Shown here: piece by piece, positions 7 through 11,640 of the stretch
Layout of the letters: every line of letters starts with the position of its first letter
How positions within the stretch are numbered: position 1 is the stretch's first letter
NCBI GenBank assembly: GCA_017857395.1
Contig: JAFMDF010000003.1
Span: 1-64,000 of the forward strand
Length of the DNA stretch: 64,000 nucleotides
Direction: 5' to 3'
Source: Bacteroidota bacterium
GTDB taxonomy: Bacteria > Bacteroidota > Bacteroidia > Chitinophagales > Saprospiraceae
Notes under the pieces: model-generated
What the model saw: the letters and a program-made list of their open reading frames with translations, nothing else
What the model was told of the DNA's origin: nothing
Databases searched by the model: none
Translations under genes and position numbers: made by a program

Positions 7-1215
7 TTGGCAAAGGGAGAATATTGGGGCTGGATGCATGGCATGCCACATGCCGTCAAGGATTTAGCGGCTGTTGCTGGGATGCGCTATACTCAAGGTT
101 CGTTGTTGTTTAAAGACCGTATAGCAGAAGAAGACAGTCCGTTGATTGCTAAGATTCGGCAGGCAGGGGCTATTTTTATTGGCAAGACAAATACGCCTGA
201 ATTTGGATTGGGATCTCAAACTTATAACCCTATTTTCGGTGCGACTGGAAGTGCTTATAACCCCAATTTAACGGCTGGAGGAAGTAGTGGAGGTGCAGCT
301 TGTGGACTTGGCACAGGGATGTTGCCCGTTGCAGATGGAGGGGATATGATGGGGTCCCTCAGGAATCCTGGTGCCTTTAATAATGTCATTGGATTTCGAC
401 CAAGTACGACGGTTGTAATGGAGGAGGGAGATGCCAAGAATCGACTTTTATGGACTTCTGGACCAATGGGTAGAAATACGCGAGATGCTATTCAATTGCT
501 GCAAACGCTTGCCCGAAAACCCGTTTTTAATGACCTAAAACCTTTAGCATTGAAAGATGTCAAGATTGGTTGGATGGGGAACTTGAATAACTATTTGCCT
601 TTAGAAACGGGTATTCTTGATTTATGTGAGACCAGTTTGAAAACTGTCTCCGCTGCTGGTGCGATAGTCGAACCCATGCAGCCCCAATTTAATTTATCTG
701 ATTTATGGTTTTGTTGGACGACGCTTCGACATCATATTCGTTTAGAGCAGTTGGACTATTTAGAATTTCCAGCTAAACGGGACTTACTTAAACCAGAGTT
801 AATTTGGGAAATAGAAGAAGGCTTAAGCTTCTCCACACAAACCGTAGAAAAAGCGAACCAAATTCGGGCTGATTGGTATGTTGAATTAGACCGTATGTTT
901 GAGCAATATGATTTTTTAGTCTTACCGTCTGTACAAGTTTTTCCTTTTTCTAAGGAAACGCATTGGCCAAAAGAAATCAATGGCCAACCGATGGATACGT
1001 ATCATCGCTGGATGGAAGTGGTTATTTTGAGCAGTCTTGGTGGAATACCTGCGGTGAATGTTCCCGTGGGGTTTGACGCAAAGGGTAGACCAATGGGGAT
1101 GCAAATCATGGGGAAATTTGGAGCCGATAAAAAAGTGTTAGAATTTGCCTTGGCTTATGAACAAATTACAGATTATTTGAGTGTGCAACCGAAATTGATA
1201 GGAGGAGGTAATTAG
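7..1215 (+). CDS. Amidase signature family protein, probably 5'-truncated by the window edge
   Basis: Translation has the Gly/Ser-rich amidase signature GGSSGGAACGLGTGMLPVADGGDMMGSLRNPGAFNNVIGFRPS with an upstream HAVKD lysine. The ORF starts with TTG at the window edge. Confidence 0.88.
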   Translation: MAKGEYWGWMHGMPHAVKDLAAVAGMRYTQGSLLFKDRIAEEDSPLIAKIRQAGAIFIGKTNTPEFGLGSQTYNPIFGATGSAYNPNLTAGGSSGGAACGLGTGMLPVADGGDMMGSLRNPGAFNNVIGFRPSTTVVMEEGDAKNRLLWTSGPMGRNTRDAIQLLQTLARKPVFNDLKPLALKDVKIGWMGNLNNYLPLETGILDLCETSLKTVSAAGAIVEPMQPQFNLSDLWFCWTTLRHHIRLEQLDYLEFPAKRDLLKPELIWEIEEGLSFSTQTVEKANQIRADWYVELDRMFEQYDFLVLPSVQVFPFSKETHWPKEINGQPMDTYHRWMEVVILSSLGGIPAVNVPVGFDAKGRPMGMQIMGKFGADKKVLEFALAYEQITDYLSVQPKLIGGGN

Positions 1216-1411: not shown

Positions 1412-2662
1412 CTAAGATTTTTTATTAAGCAAATAATAACAAGCACCTGCTATCAAAAAAGAATCTAGAAAATGCGCATGGGTGAGTTGAAAGACCTCAA
1501 AATAAGTGCATAAGGCGATAGTGGAACTAATACCCCAACTGATTAACCCTTTGATTCCCCAAGGTTGAATCTCGGCCAAATCATATTGCTGTTTTTTTAA
1601 CCAAAAGAAATCCAGCAGATAGATAGCGGAAATAGAGGGGGTAAAAACACCTAGAATATCTAAAAAATCAAACAGGTAATCAGAAAATTGAAAAAGCGCC
1701 AACAAAGTGCCAAGCACACTAGTCACTATACACATAGTGCTAAATTTCCATGTCGTTTCCACCGTAGAAAAAGTCAAGACTGTAGAATATAAATTGGAGG
1801 CGTTGGTGACCCAAGTAGAAACAAATAATAAGACAAAAGCTGGCAATATTAAACCTAGTGAATTCATTATTTTTATAATGTCCACTTCTCCCGTTTTTAT
1901 AGCTGTAATGGCACTAATGATTAGAAAGAGTGGCGTACCAATGATTATTCCTAATACTGCAATTAAGCTTTGTTTATCATTATAAATAAATCTTGAAAAA
2001 TCTGCCATTAAAATAGGGACAAGGATGGAAGAACCTATTAAAACTGAAGTCGCATCAAATAAAGACATGCCGTTATTTGGGTCTGGCGCATAGTCCCAAA
2101 GATTGGTCACTACTGTGCTTTGACCTAATGCTTTATACGTGGCATAACCTAAAAATACGGTGAGCAATGGTACTGCAATATTTGCTAACTTTTCAAGACT
2201 TCGAATGCCATAAATAGTCGTTACGGTAATAAAGATACTAGTAAAAACGACGATACTCCAGAGCGGAAAAGCGGTATCAAATACAAGTAGCCCGGTTGCT
2301 TGAATGGCTTGTGCCAATAATTCTAAGGCAACAGAAAACCAGCCTAATAAAATTAATCCTATGATGAAATTGATGATTTTAGCACCCTGTTCTCCAAATG
2401 GAAACCGTAAAATCATGTAAGTGGATAATCTCGACCGATTGCCAACTATAGTGGTGGCAATACATAAGACAGTTAATATCATCGTTGAGATGCTATAAGC
2501 AATAAGTGCCTCTTTTAGTCCAACCGACAAGGCAATTTCTGCCCCTAAATACATAATGGGTAAACTAAAGCCCATCCCTGCAAGCACTAAAGCAATCATC
2601 CAGCCAGAAGTGAAGTCTTTTGCTTGTACTTTTGAAGTGGTGTATTGGTTATTTTCTGACAT
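1412..2662 (-). CDS. NCS1-type (cytosine/purine/hydantoin) permease
   Basis: 416 aa polytopic protein. GMGFSLPIMYLGAEIA, RSRLSTYMILRFPFG, LMADFSRFI and STWVTNASNLYS are typical of the CodB-like NCS1 family. Confidence 0.83.
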   Translation of the reverse strand: MSENNQYTTSKVQAKDFTSGWMIALVLAGMGFSLPIMYLGAEIALSVGLKEALIAYSISTMILTVLCIATTIVGNRSRLSTYMILRFPFGEQGAKIINFIIGLILLGWFSVALELLAQAIQATGLLVFDTAFPLWSIVVFTSIFITVTTIYGIRSLEKLANIAVPLLTVFLGYATYKALGQSTVVTNLWDYAPDPNNGMSLFDATSVLIGSSILVPILMADFSRFIYNDKQSLIAVLGIIIGTPLFLIISAITAIKTGEVDIIKIMNSLGLILPAFVLLFVSTWVTNASNLYSTVLTFSTVETTWKFSTMCIVTSVLGTLLALFQFSDYLFDFLDILGVFTPSISAIYLLDFFWLKKQQYDLAEIQPWGIKGLISWGISSTIALCTYFEVFQLTHAHFLDSFLIAGACYYLLNKKS

Positions 2663-2677
2663 GATTCGAGTTGCGAG

Positions 2678-4129
2678 TTATAGTACTGCCAAAACAGTTG
2701 TTAAATACGTCCAAAACTTTTGAGTTGAACTAATTTGTAAGGCTTCATCAGGTGAATGTGCGCCTGTAATATTTGGCCCAAAAGAAATGATTTCTAAATG
2801 GGGATAAGTTTCGGCTAAAATGCCACATTCTAAGCCTGCATGAATGGCAAAAATATCAGGTGCTTGACCGTATAATCGTTCATACACCTTTTTCATCGTG
2901 GCAAGGGTTTGGGTATTCGGTTCGGGTTTCCAACCAGGGTATGGATCCATTTCTGTTATTGCTGCATTTATAGCTAAAAAACTACTGCGAATCCCATTCA
3001 CTAAATCAGCTCGTTCGCTTTCAATAAAACTACGGGTGTGACAACTTATTTTATAATGTCCATTTCCCAATTGAATTTTGGCTAAATTATTAGAACTCTG
3101 CACCAAATTATTCAAAGCAGGCGTCATTCTATAAATACCATTTGGGCAAGTATAAATACTGGCGATTAATGATTTTTGGAGGGCATCAGGTAAAACAAAA
3201 GACTCCTTTTTTTCAGGGGTTAACTCAATGGCAAGTTTAGGGTCGTTCTCTTTATTTTCTTTTTGTAGTAAAACCGCCCAAGACAAGACCGCTTCTTTTA
3301 ACAAAGGAATAGCTGCTTTTTCAATACCAATAATAGCAGTACATTCCCTTGGTATGGCATTCGTTAGACTTCCGCCATTTATGGCACCGATTCGAACGCT
3401 AAAGTTTTTATCTAATTCAAATAATAATCTATTGAGTAACTTGATAGCGTTACCTTTTCCTTTGTGAATATCCACGCCTGAGTGACCGCCTGATAAGCCT
3501 TTGACACTTAATTTAAAAAAAGAAACGTCGGGAGACAGCATACTTTCATAATAACTTCCTTCAATTTCCACATCTACACCACCCGCCGAACCAATCGTCA
3601 AAGCATCATCTTCTTCCGAATCTAGGTTTAATAAAATAGCTCCTGTTAAAAACCCTTTTTTTAAACCCATTGCCCCTGTCATTCCGACCTCTTCGTCTAT
3701 GGTAAATATTGCCTCGATGGCTGGGTGTACTAAATCATTGGCTGCTAAAACTGACATAATTGCCGCAACTCCGATGCCATTATCTGCTCCAAGCGTTGTG
3801 CCTTTTGCCCGCACCCAATCCCCATCAACATACATATTGATACCCTGAGTGGTAAAGTCAAAATACGTATTGGCATTTTTTTGATGGACCATATCCAAGT
3901 GCCCTTGTAGGATAATGGTTGGTTTGGATTCCATGCCTTTAGTCGCTGGTTTTTTTATGAGGACATTGCCAATTTCATCGCCTATCGTTTCCAAACCTAA
4001 GTTTTCTCCAAATGTCTTCATAAATTGGATGACTTGTGCTTCTTTTTTGGAAGCCCTTGGAATGGCATTTAATTGACTGAAATGTTTCCAGATAGCAGTT
4101 GGTTGGAGGTGATTTAATGTATTTGACAT
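2678..4129 (-). CDS. pepD: PepD-like aminoacyl-histidine dipeptidase, M20 family
   Basis: 483 aa. LQGHLDMVHQKN, TTLGADNGIGVAAIMS, TIDEEVGMTGAMGL and AIHAGLECGIL motifs. Confidence 0.88.
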   Translation of the reverse strand: MSNTLNHLQPTAIWKHFSQLNAIPRASKKEAQVIQFMKTFGENLGLETIGDEIGNVLIKKPATKGMESKPTIILQGHLDMVHQKNANTYFDFTTQGINMYVDGDWVRAKGTTLGADNGIGVAAIMSVLAANDLVHPAIEAIFTIDEEVGMTGAMGLKKGFLTGAILLNLDSEEDDALTIGSAGGVDVEIEGSYYESMLSPDVSFFKLSVKGLSGGHSGVDIHKGKGNAIKLLNRLLFELDKNFSVRIGAINGGSLTNAIPRECTAIIGIEKAAIPLLKEAVLSWAVLLQKENKENDPKLAIELTPEKKESFVLPDALQKSLIASIYTCPNGIYRMTPALNNLVQSSNNLAKIQLGNGHYKISCHTRSFIESERADLVNGIRSSFLAINAAITEMDPYPGWKPEPNTQTLATMKKVYERLYGQAPDIFAIHAGLECGILAETYPHLEIISFGPNITGAHSPDEALQISSTQKFWTYLTTVLAVL

Positions 4130-4181
4130 GAAATTATTTTGTGTCTTATATAATCGCCAAATTTGGCGGTTACGAGTGATA

Positions 4182-5441
4182 CTAATCCTTCTTCACCTTC
4201 AAAAGTACCCCATAAAAAATCAAACCTGCCAAAAAAGCATCAATAAAAGGAATAGTCGTCAATTGAAATAATCCATTATGCGTAGCAATCGCCACTAAAG
4301 AACTAGCGCCCCAAGCCAATAAGGCTTGCCAAATATAAGCTGGTAATGCCTCGATTTCATTCACGTCGTATACACCTTTACTTACAAAAAAATAATGGAG
4401 GATAAATATGGATGCTAGAGAAGGAACGACGAGACTCACAAAAGTCAACATATCAATAAAATAAGTCGAGAACCCCATTATGGCGAGTAGGGTAGCGATA
4501 ATACTCGATACCACACCTATTGCCCAAAATTTCCATTTTTTATTAAGGGTGGCAAAAACGAGGATGGAGGAATAGAGATTGACCACGTTGGTCGTCCAAG
4601 TAGAGAAAATAAGTATAAAAAAAGCAGGTATCGTTAAACCTAACCCAATCATTATTTTCATAATGTCTTCTTCTCCTGTGAGAATAGACGGCGCTGCACC
4701 TGCAATTAAAACGAAGGGTTGACCTATAGCTAATCCTAAAGCACCCAACAAAGCATCTTTATCTTTTGCTGCAAAACGGGAAAAATCAGGCATAAAGACA
4801 GGCATTAAGATGGAAGTGCCTGTAATGATAGAAATAGCTTCTAAAGTAGTCATTTTACCATTGCCTGCAAAAGTCCAAATTTTCTCCCAACTCTCTGGTT
4901 CTTGTAACGAAACGTACAAAATATACCCAACAAAAAGGATTAAAAAGGGAACGGCGACATTGGAAAATTTCTCAATGACCCTAAAACCAAAAATGGTTGT
5001 TAAGGTCATCAATAGGCTACTCACCAAAATTAATATGGTTAAAGGAATATCAATATTAAGTACTTCAATGAAAGCGTCTGAAAGGGCTTGCCCGAATAAT
5101 TCAATGGTAATGGCATACCAACCCAATGCAGGTATGGCGACTAGCAGGTTAATAAATTTAACGCCCCTTTTTCCAAAGGGAAAATGCAAAATCATGTAGG
5201 TGGACAATCTTGTGCGCCGACCAATAATAGCCGTAATGGTACAAAGGACACCCAATACAATAGAAACAAAACCAAAGACCAATAAGGCAGATTGAAAACC
5301 GATAGATTGGGTCACATTCGCCCCTACATAGAAGACAGGAAGGGTAATACCAATCCCTACAATAACCCCCATGATGCTTAAGCCACCAACGGTGGCATTT
5401 TCTGGTACACGGGTAGTTGTAAAGTCGCCTTGTTCTGCCAT
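4182..5441 (-). CDS. NCS1-type permease, paralogue of 1412..2662
   Basis: 419 aa polytopic protein sharing RTRLSTYMILHFPFGKRG, MPDFSRFA and STWTTNVVNLYSS with the neighbouring permease. Confidence 0.83.
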   Translation of the reverse strand: MAEQGDFTTTRVPENATVGGLSIMGVIVGIGITLPVFYVGANVTQSIGFQSALLVFGFVSIVLGVLCTITAIIGRRTRLSTYMILHFPFGKRGVKFINLLVAIPALGWYAITIELFGQALSDAFIEVLNIDIPLTILILVSSLLMTLTTIFGFRVIEKFSNVAVPFLILFVGYILYVSLQEPESWEKIWTFAGNGKMTTLEAISIITGTSILMPVFMPDFSRFAAKDKDALLGALGLAIGQPFVLIAGAAPSILTGEEDIMKIMIGLGLTIPAFFILIFSTWTTNVVNLYSSILVFATLNKKWKFWAIGVVSSIIATLLAIMGFSTYFIDMLTFVSLVVPSLASIFILHYFFVSKGVYDVNEIEALPAYIWQALLAWGASSLVAIATHNGLFQLTTIPFIDAFLAGLIFYGVLLKVKKD

Positions 5442-5501
5442 TTTTATTTTACTAAATCATGGTGATTTTCAAAATCACTATGATTTAAACATGATTTAAA
5501 C

Positions 5502-6560
5502 CTACGAAACCAATTCCTGTTTCGCTAAAATTGCATCTGCCATTTCTTTTAAATCAGGATGACAAACGACCCCCTCTTTGACAATTAATTGGTCATCAAA
5601 GTAGATATTAGTCTTAGCAACAATGCCATCAAAATGAGATTTAGCAGGCTGACCAAGTGGCGGCATATCAATCGGACTCGTATGACCAAAACCAAAATCT
5701 ACCCCGCCCCAAATGCGTTCATCTTCTACGATTTCGCCACAGAGTTCATGGATGTTTGGATGTAAACCAATCATGTGGTGGGAAATTTTATACATATTGG
5801 GGTCATTAAAAGCGGCTAGATAATTGGCAAATTTTTCCGCCACTTTTCCGCCTTTTACGGCAGCTATTTTACCCGCTTTCATTTCGAATGTGACTCCTCC
5901 TTTATGCAAATCAGCGTTCATTAATTCATCAAAAACAATAGTGCCATTCATACTGCCTATCTTGGGCACAATATTGACATACCCCGGTGCGGTACAAAAT
6001 TTTGGGATAGAAAAATCTCCATTGTCTAAATCTAAGGCAAAATTAGCATCTGTTTCATAGCTGACATCGGTTCCATTTTTACTGGTAACCCGCACTTTCT
6101 GAGTGGTCGCTGCCATATCCTTTACTCGATGTAATAGCTTGCCTAGACTTGCTATATCAAAATCAGTAAATACTCTAGCCAAAGATTCAATAGAAGAGTC
6201 TCCTATGATGACATAGCGCAATTTTTTGTTCTTCGCCATTGCTGTCTCCCAGATTTCAGAATATAAAAGAATCGGCACATTGAGTTCTATCCAAACATCT
6301 ACTTCGCATAAGGCAGCGGTTAACGCTTTTGCGGGCCAATCGGGCATGCCTGCTTGTCCGTCTTCTCTTGCTCTTGGCGTATAGATAATCATCGGAATGC
6401 CACCTGCTGCATAAGCTGCTGCTGCCAAACCATCTACTATTTGTCTATCTGTCGCCGAATCAGCAGTAATCGCCACGGTTTCTCCTTTTTTTACTTGAAA
6501 CATCTCCTCTAGGAGTACCTTGGAAAATTTGGCTATTTCTAAATTATATTTGTTGGTCAT
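5502..6560 (-). CDS. M29 aminopeptidase / NicX (2,5-dihydroxypyridine dioxygenase)-like metalloenzyme
   Basis: 352 aa. C-terminal metal-site pattern KISHHMIGLHPNIHE ... VDFGFGHT ... KSHFDGIV. Confidence 0.65.
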   Translation of the reverse strand: MTNKYNLEIAKFSKVLLEEMFQVKKGETVAITADSATDRQIVDGLAAAAYAAGGIPMIIYTPRAREDGQAGMPDWPAKALTAALCEVDVWIELNVPILLYSEIWETAMAKNKKLRYVIIGDSSIESLARVFTDFDIASLGKLLHRVKDMAATTQKVRVTSKNGTDVSYETDANFALDLDNGDFSIPKFCTAPGYVNIVPKIGSMNGTIVFDELMNADLHKGGVTFEMKAGKIAAVKGGKVAEKFANYLAAFNDPNMYKISHHMIGLHPNIHELCGEIVEDERIWGGVDFGFGHTSPIDMPPLGQPAKSHFDGIVAKTNIYFDDQLIVKEGVVCHPDLKEMADAILAKQELVS

Positions 6561-6573
6561 TTATCTTTTTTTC

Positions 6574-6639
6574 CGTAGCTTAGACCTCTGGTCTGAGCAG
6601 ATTTACATGCTACTACTCAGGCCAGAGGCCTAAGCTACG
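6574..6639. repeat. Long inverted repeat, GTAGCTTRGAC family, copy 1
   Basis: CGTAGCTTAGACCTCTGGTCTGAG (6574-6597) / CTCAGGCCAGAGGCCTAAGCTACG (6616-6639), 22/24 Watson-Crick. It ends 4 bp before the TonB receptor stop. Confidence 0.9.
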
Positions 6640-6643
6640 ATTC

Positions 6644-9016
6644 CTAAAAATCAATTCCAAAAGTCGCTCCAATGGTAGCAGGACGACCTCTCCATCCGAT
6701 ACCTCCAAAAGGGTCTGCCTCTAAATAATATTGTTGGTCTGTGATATTTTTTCCCCAAAGCGCAAAACTAAGCTTATTCACATTTAAGGACACTCTAGCA
6801 TTGAGCAATTGATAGGCATCAGCAATAGTACCTTCCTCATTAGAATCATACCAATAGATTTTTCCCGTACCGTTCAGATTGATATTGATATCTAAACTTG
6901 CATTTTCTCCTACCTCAAAACTAGAAGCCAATCCGATATTGAAATTATTTTGAGGGACAAAAGAAGTAAAATTACCATTGAATTCATTTAAGTCTCTTGA
7001 AGTACCATCCGCTCCACCAGTAGTACCACCTTGATCAATTTTGGAATTGACCAAACCATAACTTAGGTTAACATCCAGGTATTTTGATAACCTGATTTTT
7101 GAATCTAATTCAAATCCAGCAATCGTACTCTTTTCATAGTTGTAATTACCAGGCACAAAATTATCTAAATCATATATAAATTGCTGCCTGTCCGTAAAGT
7201 CAGAAAAGAAGACAGAGGCATTCAGTAGAAACCGATTGTCCCAAAAGGAAGTTTTAGCACCGATTTCAAAATTATCAGATAATTCTTTGCGGAAATCAGC
7301 AGCAAAAAGTTCTGTGAACTGCGCATTGAAACCTCCTGATCGGTAGCCTCTACCGTAATTAAAATACATCAAGGCATTTTCAGACGCTTGGTAACTCAAC
7401 GAAGCTTTAGGTTGCAATACATTCGCATCTCTTTTGTTCACGATAGCCTCGGGTTCACCAAAAAGTAAGGGCAATCTATCTTCTTGCTCGTAATTGTCGA
7501 TATCATATCTAAGTCCAAATGATGCCGTCAACTTATCGTTTAGGCTATAATCTAAGAATCCGAAAAAAGCGATGGTATTGAAATCAACCGTATAATCAGT
7601 TACTGCCCAATCATCCGAAAAAGTTAAGTCAGACTGATAGAAGTTACGTTCTACATTTTGAAAAAAACCACCTACACTCCAATCTAATTTGGAAGCATTA
7701 TTATTGTTGGATAATCTAAATTCTTGGTTGATTGATTTTGTATCATTAAATTCTCCTTGATCTAAGCCAAAAAAGTCAACAAAACCATCAAATGGCTCTT
7801 CCGTAAAGTCAAGATCACCAGTTGTATTCCTGTCTACTTTACTGTAGGAAGTAATGCTCTGTAATTTAGCCTTCCCTAAATTAAATTGAAGGTTGACACT
7901 CCCAAATAAATTTTTCATATCAGAATTTCCGAAAACATCCTGATGGATGACACTATTCTCATTCGTCGGATTTGGATTAATCCCAGCAAAAAAGGGTGCT
8001 CCACCCGAGCCTATACTTGCAGGGTCTATAGAATAATAGGTCGCTCCTGCATCCGTATTCATATACTGCAAGGTGGCAGTCGCTTTTACTTTGCTAGAAG
8101 GCGTAAGGATTACTTGACCCCTTAGATTCAAATCTTTGCTAAAATCTACTTTTTTATCAAGAAAAGTATTCGTTAATAGCCCATTAAAATTCTGGTACTT
8201 CCCTGAAATTCTATAGTAAGCCTTATCTTCTGTTATCGCACCAGAGGAAACCAACTGACCAGAATAATAGCCTCCATTACCCGCACCAATCTGAATATTA
8301 TTTTTGCTTTCATTGGTCGGTTCTTTAGAATAGATGTTGATGGCTCCAGCAATAGCGTTTTTACCATATAAGGCGCCTTGAGGACCTTTTACCACCTCAA
8401 TTAAGGCTAGGTCAAAAACTTCTTGGTTCAATAATGCTGGATCTGGAATAGTCACTCCATCCACGACAAAAGCTACAGGTGCATCCGAGTTCCTTATTTG
8501 TGGAATGCCTCGGATTACCAAAAAATTAACGCCTACAGCTTGAGATTCGCTCAACTTCATATTAGGCACCAATTCAGCGAAGTCCGCTACATTAGAAATA
8601 CCTGCTTTTTCTATCCCCTCACTATTAAGCGCAGTTACGGACTCTGGTATTTTTTGAATAGAGGCGACTCGTTTTCTAGCTCTACCAACTACGCCAGAAA
8701 ATCCTTTAACAACCACCTCTTCTAATGTTTCGGCGGATTCCGTTAGCGTAATATTCAATCGGCTTTTTCCATCCAATGGCATTTCTATATCCCCATATCC
8801 TGTATAAGTAATCATTAAGGTAGCATCGGCGGATGCTACGGTTAATTCATAATTTCCATTATAATCGGAAACCGTCCCATTATTGGTGCCTTTTTCAACG
8901 ATTGTTGCGCCAATAAGCGTTTCGCCCGCCGCATCAACGATAGTTCCTGATACCGTTACTTGGGCATAGGAAAAAGTCGAAACAAGTAGAAATAATAAAT
9001 AAGTATATTTTTTCAT
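6644..9016 (-). CDS. TonB-dependent receptor with N-terminal CarboxypepD_reg-like domain
   Basis: 790 aa. Signal peptide, VSGTIVDAAGETLIGATIVEKGTNNGTVSDYNGNYEL, plug domain (VIRGIPQIRNSDAPVAFVVDGV, EVVKGPQGALYGKNAIAGAINI), C-terminal beta-barrel. Confidence 0.95.
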   Translation of the reverse strand: MKKYTYLLFLLVSTFSYAQVTVSGTIVDAAGETLIGATIVEKGTNNGTVSDYNGNYELTVASADATLMITYTGYGDIEMPLDGKSRLNITLTESAETLEEVVVKGFSGVVGRARKRVASIQKIPESVTALNSEGIEKAGISNVADFAELVPNMKLSESQAVGVNFLVIRGIPQIRNSDAPVAFVVDGVTIPDPALLNQEVFDLALIEVVKGPQGALYGKNAIAGAINIYSKEPTNESKNNIQIGAGNGGYYSGQLVSSGAITEDKAYYRISGKYQNFNGLLTNTFLDKKVDFSKDLNLRGQVILTPSSKVKATATLQYMNTDAGATYYSIDPASIGSGGAPFFAGINPNPTNENSVIHQDVFGNSDMKNLFGSVNLQFNLGKAKLQSITSYSKVDRNTTGDLDFTEEPFDGFVDFFGLDQGEFNDTKSINQEFRLSNNNNASKLDWSVGGFFQNVERNFYQSDLTFSDDWAVTDYTVDFNTIAFFGFLDYSLNDKLTASFGLRYDIDNYEQEDRLPLLFGEPEAIVNKRDANVLQPKASLSYQASENALMYFNYGRGYRSGGFNAQFTELFAADFRKELSDNFEIGAKTSFWDNRFLLNASVFFSDFTDRQQFIYDLDNFVPGNYNYEKSTIAGFELDSKIRLSKYLDVNLSYGLVNSKIDQGGTTGGADGTSRDLNEFNGNFTSFVPQNNFNIGLASSFEVGENASLDININLNGTGKIYWYDSNEEGTIADAYQLLNARVSLNVNKLSFALWGKNITDQQYYLEADPFGGIGWRGRPATIGATFGIDF

Positions 9017-9148
9017 CCTATTAAGTTTTAAAATAAATGAAAGATTAAGCTAAAAAGAATGTGAACTTAGGGAAGAGTTAATTCTATTCGTTTATTTTTA
9101 CTTATTTTTATTTTATTTAGTAATTCTATTTAAAAAATCAGAATAAAT

Positions 9149-10402
9149 ATGAAAAATCGGAAAAATGTAGAAAATAATACCCTTTTGGTGACGGGATATT
9201 GTTTTAAAATTTTATTAGCAATGATTTTAAAACAATTTAAAGAAGAACATAAAGAAAATGCAGCAGTTATTGGTCGGGTCACTCAACTGTATGGATTTGG
9301 GAATTATAATGCAAACCTGCCTAGTTTAGGGCAAACATTAGAAAAATTGACAGGCGAATTTATCAATGGCAAATACCTATATGATAAACAAAGAGAGCTA
9401 CAAATGGGAAAACCTGTATTAAAGTTGAATGGTTATTATAAAACCGTCCTTTTTCAATATATTGGCTATGAAGGGATTGTCGATTTTACTAAAAAAGTGA
9501 TTAAAGAGGAACAAGAAAAAGCTAGACAACTTGCCTTAATTCAAAATGATTCGCTCGAACAGAATTTCTTTTATGTGTGCTATTATTATGGAGAATTCAA
9601 AGAAGTGGTTAAATGTCAAGTGGTCGTATTGAATAATTGGAAAAACCTGCAATACACTTATTTATATCCACTGAAAAATGGGACTTTTAAAAAATTTCTA
9701 GCTTCTGGAACGGCTAAAAGGAGAGCGGATATCTTGCATGTGCGAACAAAGACATTGATGGATGGAAGGATGATAGATGGAGGAGAAGATATTTTATACG
9801 TTGGTCATACCGAACCAGGTACGAATGCTTTTATGTTAGGCGTATTTTCAGCATTTGACATTAATAATAGAGTAGTTGCAGGCAAAATAATTTTTGAAAA
9901 ATGTGATTCCAAAGCGGAAATGATTGCTAAATCTACTACCTTAAAAATTCCTGCTTATATCGCACAAGAATTAAGAAATGTAAGAATTGAAAACGATGGG
10001 ATTATACCTAATAGCACCTTTGATATTTCGTCCAAAAGCCCTTATAGCATTACTTATGATAAAATTCCTGGCAATTATACCTTCACCCTTTTTCAAGAAG
10101 AAAAACTACTAGGCGATTTCCAATTTTCGATTCATTCAGACACCTACAAATTAGCTTCTTTGACGGAAGGGGTATTAATCGTAAAAGATAATTTTGAATT
10201 GATTCAGAATGGTTCCGTTATTCATTTTAGTCTTCAACTGACGGGCATTGCTTTCTTTACTAGATTAGAAGTCTTTATTAAAACTTATTATTTAAACAAA
10301 GGCTCAGCGGATATTCGAGGGGTATTTAGTGGCTTGGATATTGAAAATCGCTTGATTAATGGAGCTGTTCAGGTAATTTATAAGCCTTGTCTTGCTAAAT
10401 AA
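9149..10402 (+). CDS. Uncharacterised protein with an internally duplicated module
   Basis: 417 aa. FMLGVFSAFDINNRVVAGKIIFEKC matches DIRGVFSGLDIENRLINGAVQVIYKPC at the C-terminus. No family recognised. Confidence 0.8.
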   Translation: MKNRKNVENNTLLVTGYCFKILLAMILKQFKEEHKENAAVIGRVTQLYGFGNYNANLPSLGQTLEKLTGEFINGKYLYDKQRELQMGKPVLKLNGYYKTVLFQYIGYEGIVDFTKKVIKEEQEKARQLALIQNDSLEQNFFYVCYYYGEFKEVVKCQVVVLNNWKNLQYTYLYPLKNGTFKKFLASGTAKRRADILHVRTKTLMDGRMIDGGEDILYVGHTEPGTNAFMLGVFSAFDINNRVVAGKIIFEKCDSKAEMIAKSTTLKIPAYIAQELRNVRIENDGIIPNSTFDISSKSPYSITYDKIPGNYTFTLFQEEKLLGDFQFSIHSDTYKLASLTEGVLIVKDNFELIQNGSVIHFSLQLTGIAFFTRLEVFIKTYYLNKGSADIRGVFSGLDIENRLINGAVQVIYKPCLAK

Positions 10403-10542: not shown

Positions 10543-11640
10543 TTATTTTGCCAAATCCAACGGCTCGTAATAACTCCAATTAGCATCATTAAGGTATTTC
10601 ATTTTCGTTTTTCGACGCCATTGTTGAATCGCATAATCCGTACCTTTAAACGTCCAACTTTGTCGGCAGATATTCCAGTTGTCAGGTGCTAATTCCTCTG
10701 CTATAGCTAAATATTTTTGCGCATTTTCTTGGTCAGAAATACCTTCAAAATAAAGCCCCATTTTAAAGTAAGCATCTGCCAAAAAATCCTCGGTTGATTG
10801 CGAGCGAGTATTGGCGTTTAATTTTTCTGGCGCTTGTTTTAGGTGGTCGCCCAAGCCATTTTTGACCCAATCTATTGTTGCTTCTCCAAAAAGGGCGTCC
10901 CCAAAGGAATAAGGCTTTTTTTCTGTAGGAACAGTATGTTTAGCCGCATAAGCCGACTCATTGACCCGCACTATTTTACCTGTTTCATCTATCCAGGCCG
11001 CCGTCGGTACATTGACCCAACCGAATAAAGTGCTGATTTTATGAGTAGGGTCAACGATGCATTTATAAGTAGCATTGGCATCCGTAAACCAAACTTTAGC
11101 AACTTCTGGTCCTTCAGAATCTTCTGCCACACAGATAATTTCAAAATTAGGGTCATTTAATGTTTCATAAATGTCCTGCCATACTTTTACATCAAATCGA
11201 CAACCGCACCAAGTGGCCCAAGTAACTATCAAGACTTTTTTTCCTTTTAAATCAGACAAACGAACGATTGCGCCATTAATATCGGCTATTTCAAAATCAG
11301 GAGCGATAGCAGATTCCAACATCGCCTTTCTCACTGCTGGAATTAAACCTAAACTCCAAACAGTTTTATCGACATTCGCCACACAAGCTTGTTCCAACCT
11401 ATTCGCCAATTTATAAACATTGAGCCATTGATGACCTGCTGCTTCCTGTACAAATCCGTCTTCCAATAATGGAATACAAATATTTAGAGGGTCGTAACAA
11501 GCACCGCTTTTTTTAAGCTCAAAACCAGTGGCTGCTTTCAGTTCGGTTTTTTTTATCCATAAGTCATTACTATTGGTTGGTAGCGCCGTGATTTTTGTAG
11601 TGGTATCATTGGCAAGGAGGACTATTTCTTTTTTATGCAT
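10543..11640 (-). CDS. Redoxin/thioredoxin-fold protein with an extra N-terminal domain and a TPR-like C-terminus
   Basis: APDFEIADINGAIVRLSDLKGKKVLIVTWATWCGCRFDVKVWQ. The cysteine motif is WCGCR rather than WCxxC. Confidence 0.75.
   Translation of the reverse strand: MHKKEIVLLANDTTTKITALPTNSNDLWIKKTELKAATGFELKKSGACYDPLNICIPLLEDGFVQEAAGHQWLNVYKLANRLEQACVANVDKTVWSLGLIPAVRKAMLESAIAPDFEIADINGAIVRLSDLKGKKVLIVTWATWCGCRFDVKVWQDIYETLNDPNFEIICVAEDSEGPEVAKVWFTDANATYKCIVDPTHKISTLFGWVNVPTAAWIDETGKIVRVNESAYAAKHTVPTEKKPYSFGDALFGEATIDWVKNGLGDHLKQAPEKLNANTRSQSTEDFLADAYFKMGLYFEGISDQENAQKYLAIAEELAPDNWNICRQSWTFKGTDYAIQQWRRKTKMKYLNDANWSYYEPLDLAK

Follow-up and report, generated by a model that had tools for sequence, protein, structure and literature searches.

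What compound does a bacterium take up and break down with a TonB-dependent receptor, a NicX/M29-like metal enzyme, two NCS1 permeases and a PepD-like dipeptidase? The question is raised by a locus at positions 1,412 to 9,016 of a 64,000-nucleotide stretch of a Saprospiraceae genome (Bacteroidota; assembly GCA_017857395.1, contig JAFMDF010000003.1, positions 1 to 64,000 of the forward strand), referred to here as the window. Our analysis points, tentatively and with rather less than an even chance, to an operon dedicated to taking up and hydrolysing a small, non-planar cyclic amide that derives from two amino acids, with a 2,5-diketopiperazine (cyclic dipeptide) as the likeliest candidate. Behind this reading stand the conservation of the genes, the placement of their products in families, the loss of residues specific to NicX and to M29 enzymes, and the loss of an aromatic residue from the permeases.

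A conserved operon in Bacteroidota

All five minus-strand open reading frames were confirmed, with intergenic gaps of 83, 60, 52 and 15 bp, and Pfam and NCBIfam domain searches upheld the family assignments of the receptor, both permeases, PepD and an adjoining amidase. The five co-directional genes with gaps of 15-83 bp that a sequence-only reading of the window had described are thereby borne out. That reading overlooked, however, that the operon unit reaches a sixth gene, the divergently transcribed HP417. The convergent amidase gene (7..1215) that it noted as adjoining was rejected as a member of the operon since it is missing beside the locus in relatives. The amidase gene is truncated, as the window begins at contig position 1, and its apparent start at position 7 is an artefact. 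The receptor gene opens the operon, has a CarboxypepD_reg-like domain at the N-terminus of its product and is not accompanied by a SusD partner. The locus consists of the following elements:

6644..9016, minus strand: TonB-dependent receptor (TBDR), 790 amino acids, with the Pfam domains TonB_dep_Rec_b-barrel, Plug and CarbopepD_reg_2
5502..6560, minus strand: metal enzyme of the NicX/M29 superfamily (NicX-like), 352 amino acids, characterised by AlphaFold2 model, Foldseek, residue mapping and tree
4182..5441, minus strand: NCS1 permease a, of the CodB-like fold family with an altered substrate site (PF02133; 7qoa, E=9e-32)
2678..4129, minus strand: PepD-like M20C dipeptidase, 483 amino acids (TIGR01893; aminoacyl-histidine dipeptidases 3mru and 2qyv)
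1412..2662, minus strand: NCS1 permease b, the conserved core permease type (PF02133)
9149..10402, plus strand: HP417, 417 amino acids, of no known family, divergently transcribed
9017..9148, no strand: promoter region shared by HP417 and the receptor gene, 132 bp, partly conserved and with a TAnnTT box in an alignment of 13 intergenic regions

One scan of genome contigs with the NicX-like protein as query yielded 17 loci. The order in Bacteroidota is divergent HP417, TBDR, NicX-like and NCS1 (some loci are cut by contig ends), and this unit recurs with tight gaps in both Saprospiraceae and Flavobacteriaceae. The receptor gene comes first in every relative long enough to show it (50-85% identity), and HP417 is just as constant: wherever a relative's contig extends far enough, the gene lies adjacent and in divergent orientation. 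PepD and the second permease are additions, both of them present in Lutibacter citreus, Maribacter and two Zobellia. Among the relatives from the window's own genus, one has the full set divided between two contigs, another has TBDR, NicX-like, PepD and NCS1b, and a third shows the PepD/NCS1b end at a contig edge. The locus is rare: a sample of 395 Bacteroidia genomes contained it once, as did one of 396 genomes from the phylum, and the HP417 family occurred in 1 of 247 Bacteroidia genomes, the single hit being in each case the window's own genome. The conserved gene order indicates that the arrangement is more than chance, and the lack of synteny that would have spoken against the sequence-only reading did not materialise. 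No cluster of this make-up is described in the literature searched, in keeping with that reading's remark that no named pathway is known to have this gene set.

A probable third subfamily of the NicX/M29 fold

At E<=0.001 neither Pfam nor NCBIfam gives a match for the NicX-like protein (the Pfam M29 family, PF02073, reaches E=0.021 and 14.1 bits, under its cut-off of 27), and it matches NicX (7cn3) with E=3e-7 in phmmer and 3e-19 in a profile search. Its AlphaFold2 model (predicted local distance difference test, pLDDT, 88.5) retrieves 7cn3 as the closest solved structure in Foldseek, with a template-modelling score of 0.78 and E=1.6e-27, followed by the M29 structures PepS and AmpT (E 1e-16 to 1e-18; 12-13% identity), which places the predicted fold within the NicX/M29 superfamily over the whole chain. 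In the tree, the Bacteroidota enzymes form one clade (100/100) within a supported group that contains Bacillota (97/98), apart from NicX and M29. NicX and two plasmid homologues form a clade of their own (100/100) outside which the window enzyme falls; plasmid homologues represent more distant branches with other neighbours, one of them beside an M20 deacylase-type peptidase. The Bacillota members of the 97/98 group include the enzyme of Emergencia, a member of the class Clostridia that we take to be strictly anaerobic, which argues against an O2-dependent reaction.

The enzyme was also compared with the catalytic residues of the two known families. In NicX, a 2,5-dihydroxypyridine 5,6-dioxygenase, iron is bound by His265, Ser302, His318 and Asp320 and the substrate is contacted by His105, Glu177 and His189; the alanine mutant of Ser302 loses both activity and iron (PMC7910607). 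The alignment indicates that three predicted metal ligands are kept (His261, His309 and Asp311, equivalent to NicX His265, His318 and Asp320), whereas Ser302 is replaced by Gly290, a glycine found in every aligned member of the window's clade. None of the NicX substrate residues is retained: the window enzyme has Tyr100 (tyrosine throughout its own branch), Asp179 and Cys189 at these positions, and those of Glu177 and His189 are unconserved in the Bacteroidota branch. The window's family carries an EDER motif, whose pairing with the DAR column of NicX shifts by one residue between alignment methods. As for M29, the six catalytic residues of Lmo1603 are Glu216, Glu281, His308, Tyr315, His327 and Asp329 (PMC4661694), and only the last two, His and Asp, align in the NicX-like enzyme; Glu281 corresponds to His261, Glu216 to Tyr194, and the position of His308 is not a histidine.

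These residue losses, the separate clade and the Clostridia member place the enzyme in a third subfamily of the fold, neither NicX nor M29, and make it more likely to be a hydrolase than a dioxygenase. It would thus be a candidate non-oxidative hydrolase of cyclic amides, specifically of cyclic dipeptides. Oxidative ring cleavage of the NicX type is disfavoured by the residues, the clade and the occurrence in Clostridia, and M29 aminopeptidase identity by the lost catalytic residues.

Two more distant members of the superfamily were seen in passing. On a Variovorax plasmid (L039, 4796-7020), an M20 ArgE/DapE-type peptidase gene is directly followed by a more distant NicX-like gene, and in another locus (L036:11121-12128, minus strand) a distant paralogue of the NicX/M29 type, which carries Glu where the window enzyme has His261, lies near a NicX-like gene and a DUF917 gene.

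The operon permeases lack a conserved aromatic residue

Both window permeases belong to NCS1 (PF02133 scores of 61.9 and 50.3 bits, cut-off 23.5), and they are 41% identical to each other. Every single-permease locus not cut by a contig end has the b type (55-66% identity), to which the full loci add an a type; as the a-type permeases are not one clade in the tree, we claim no single duplication event. CodB holds its substrate sandwiched between Trp108 and Phe204, and throughout NCS1 the aromatic residue of transmembrane helix 6 (TM6) is either Phe or Trp (PMC9379551). Trp108 of TM3 is retained in the operon permeases, but at the TM6 position (CodB Phe204, Mhp1 Trp220) they have Ser, Ala or Thr, with Ser in both window proteins, so that the aromatic sandwich of nucleobase and hydantoin carriers is incomplete. 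Ordinary NCS1 permeases of the window's relatives have Trp at this position (10 of 10); in the Bacillota permeases the residue is mostly Met or Leu, the exceptions being Phe (L029 and L037) and Asn (L030). NCS1a additionally has Ala in place of Gln105. With both Phe/Trp and Gln105 replaced, a different substrate is to be expected, and the lost TM6 aromatic argues against a flat nucleobase- or hydantoin-like compound and for a bulkier or non-planar one.

Dipeptidases recur beside the NicX-like gene

PepD of the window scores 551.8 bits against TIGR01893, above the curated cut-off of 343.75. It is an accessory gene, missing from several relatives; where the locus of Flavobacteriaceae includes PepD, a further PepD is encoded elsewhere in the genome, and the window genome has this PepD only. 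In Bacillota, the NicX-like homologues adjoin an NCS1 gene and often a PucR regulator, and in two loci (L025 and L027) a PepV/Sapep-type M20 dipeptidase sits beside the NicX-like and NCS1 genes, while a deep lineage (L038) has the order NicX-like, nitrilase-like, NCS1, NicX-like and PepD. M20 dipeptidases of differing subfamilies therefore adjoin the NicX-like and NCS1 genes in three lineages (Bacteroidota, Bacillota L025/L027 and L038), and this recurrence is the main evidence that the product of the NicX-like enzyme would be a dipeptide.

Another Bacillota branch (L031-L034) has a conserved PucR/OppABCDF/NicX-like/DUF917 operon, the last gene encoding an S-methyl-thiohydantoin-desulfurase-like protein; this operon is apparently a second undescribed context of the NicX-like family. 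Beside the Emergencia NicX-like/NCS1 pair lies a divergent gene for a PrdR-like sigma-54 regulator (L021:8426-9802, minus strand), hinting at amino-acid (Stickland) metabolism.

A possible route for cyclic dipeptides and its alternatives

In the route that we favour, the TonB receptor would carry the compound across the outer membrane and the NCS1 permeases across the inner membrane, after which the NicX-like metal enzyme would open the ring in the cytoplasm by hydrolysis, not with O2. Where the locus has one, the M20 dipeptidase (PepD) would split the resulting linear dipeptide into amino acids, a step that a housekeeping dipeptidase could perform in loci without PepD. Some hydantoin-hydrolysing bacteria also degrade diketopiperazines, and neither the peptidases nor the two recombinant hydantoinases tested cleaved these compounds (PMC3852281). 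A separate enzyme is therefore plausible, and a diketopiperazine fits both the resistance to peptidases and the degradation by some hydantoin degraders despite inactive recombinant hydantoinases. Neither diketopiperazine hydrolase genes nor a gene family for that activity turned up in the literature searched.

The sequence-only reading is partly supported. Import across both membranes followed by cytoplasmic cleavage is supported by the conserved locus, and the option of a cyclic or heterocycle-containing dipeptide has gained strength as the better fit. The NicX/M29-like label holds for the fold, given the relationship to 7cn3 and the M29 structures, but the residues and the clade make the enzyme neither of the two. 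An aromatic nitrogen heterocycle as the substrate has lost ground to the replacement of Ser302 and His105, the Clostridia homologues and the missing TM6 aromatic.

Several points weigh against a cyclic dipeptide. No characterised homologue acts on such compounds, and the proposed substrate rests on gene context; the dipeptidase is missing in about half of the Bacteroidota loci; a TonB receptor would be unusual for a porin-sized compound; and neither the metal nor the chemistry is readable from the sequence. The permease change may have more than one meaning, since NCS1 proteins adapt to unusual, non-heterocyclic substrates such as metformin (PMC13390362). The Opp ABC importer and DUF917 partners in L031-L034 would also fit a hydantoin-type ring.

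The dipeptidase could also be the key to a different substrate, linear modified dipeptides (for instance imidazole dipeptides such as carnosine or anserine), which the operon would import and PepD would cleave, with the NicX-like enzyme as a new M29-like peptidase subfamily. PepD strongly matches the Xaa-His dipeptidase family (annotated as beta-Ala-His dipeptidase), PepV-type enzymes are likewise dipeptidases, and M29 aminopeptidases have the same fold and the same His/Asp ligands at the C-terminal end. We nonetheless regard this as unlikely: two of the six M29 catalytic residues are left, Glu281 is His throughout the NicX-like family, in several loci the NicX-like gene and a permease occur with no dipeptidase, so that a linear dipeptide would lack an obvious dedicated cleaving step there, and we know of no NCS1 protein that carries linear peptides. 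Import and opening of a five- or six-membered ureide, that is, a cyclic amide of the hydantoin or dihydropyrimidine type, draws on the NCS1 member Mhp1, which carries hydantoins, and on the PucR-type regulators and DUF917 proteins beside the Bacillota homologues. This seems quite unlikely, as the conserved unit has no hydantoinase or carbamoylase, the residue that stacks on hydantoin in TM6 of Mhp1 is gone, and the recurrent partner is a dipeptidase.

Were the NicX-like enzyme a dioxygenase that uses Fe(II) and O2 to cleave the ring of a hydroxylated pyridine or another aromatic N-heterocycle, its closest solved structure and the conserved two His and one Asp ligands would be explained. What makes this improbable is the substitution pattern already described (Gly for Ser302, Tyr for His105, and no conservation of Glu177 and His189 in the Bacteroidota branch), together with the close homologues in Clostridia, an operon without a hydroxylase or downstream maleamate pathway genes, and permeases without the aromatic. 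Highly improbable, finally, is a larger cyclic peptide of the siderophore or antibiotic type, imported by the TonB receptor and linearised and inactivated by the enzyme. The receptor does score best with siderophore receptors, though below cut-off, and Foldseek finds the fold again in CgnB and CgnE, proteins of the crocagin peptide, but NCS1 permeases carry small substrates, the conserved unit has no ferric reductase or siderophore genes, and the recurrent arrangement with one or two permeases points to a nutrient.

HP417 and the shared promoter region

HP417 has no match in Pfam, NCBIfam, PDB or PHROG. Its low-confidence AlphaFold2 model (pLDDT 68) predicts a helical N-terminus followed by beta-barrel regions, for which the fold search gave weak lipocalin-like matches only. 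Since the gene is divergent and constant and its product has a predicted beta-barrel region, we propose HP417 as a local sensor, a putative ligand-sensing regulator that would respond to the imported compound and control the divergent promoters.

The HP417-TBDR intergenic regions of L015-L017 and L020 contain an AT-rich and almost perfect palindrome, AATTATTAAAAATATTTTTAATAATT, which may be an operator in Flavobacteriaceae; in L016, none of 200 shuffles was as good. The palindrome is unrecognisable in the window, where 200 of 200 shuffles were as good, and with this non-significant result we make no claim that a palindromic operator is conserved in the region separating HP417 from the TonB gene. 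Scans for generic sigma-70 promoters and for terminators did not exceed shuffled sequence. Elsewhere in the window, a minus-strand gene (10543-11640) encodes a ResA-like protein of the WAxxUGC family (NF041054, 233 bits, under the cut-off of 300), with Cys (WATWCGC) in the place of the U of the family name.

Significance and comparison with known systems

Abundant both as natural products and as compounds derived from food, cyclic dipeptides withstand ordinary peptidases, and little has been learnt about their degrading enzymes (PMC3852281). The operon offers a directly testable candidate, in which specific importers and a dipeptidase accompany a metal enzyme of unassigned function. If the proposal is true, a branch of the NicX/M29 fold now labelled 'hypothetical' or 'aminopeptidase' would gain a function, and NCS1 permeases may switch substrate class through the loss of a single aromatic residue. 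It is possible, albeit doubtful, that this is the first recognised cluster dedicated to diketopiperazine catabolism. At its centre would stand a new subfamily of non-oxidative metallohydrolases with the NicX/M29 fold, shared by Bacteroidota and Clostridia; the NCS1 permeases would have been adapted to non-planar substrates, and HP417 would represent a new family of regulators.

In general plan, an NCS1 importer paired with an enzyme that opens a cyclic amide, the operon resembles the clusters for hydantoin and cyclic-amide utilisation. It differs from them in having no hydantoinase, carbamoylase or racemase, and in possessing an unrelated metal enzyme, a dipeptidase and a TonB receptor. With NicX, the NicX-like enzyme has the overall fold and the His/His/Asp ligands in common, but it is set apart by Gly290, Tyr100, the EDER motif, its own clade, other gene neighbours and homologues in Clostridia. 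The M29 enzymes AmpT, AmpS, PepS and Lmo1603 share with it the superfamily fold and the final His-x-Asp metal pair, whereas both catalytic Glu residues, the catalytic His and the Tyr are unconserved, and the Pfam M29 score lies under the cut-off. The operon permeases are of the same family as CodB and Mhp1 and retain TM3 Trp108, Asn280, Arg216, Tyr285 and, largely, the sodium-site Thr279, yet differ by Ser, Ala or Thr for the TM6 Phe or Trp and by Ala or Leu for Gln105. PepD, lastly, matches the Xaa-His dipeptidases (M20C, TIGR01893) over its full length, but its gene lies within an uptake operon instead of standing alone, and in Flavobacteriaceae it is an extra copy.

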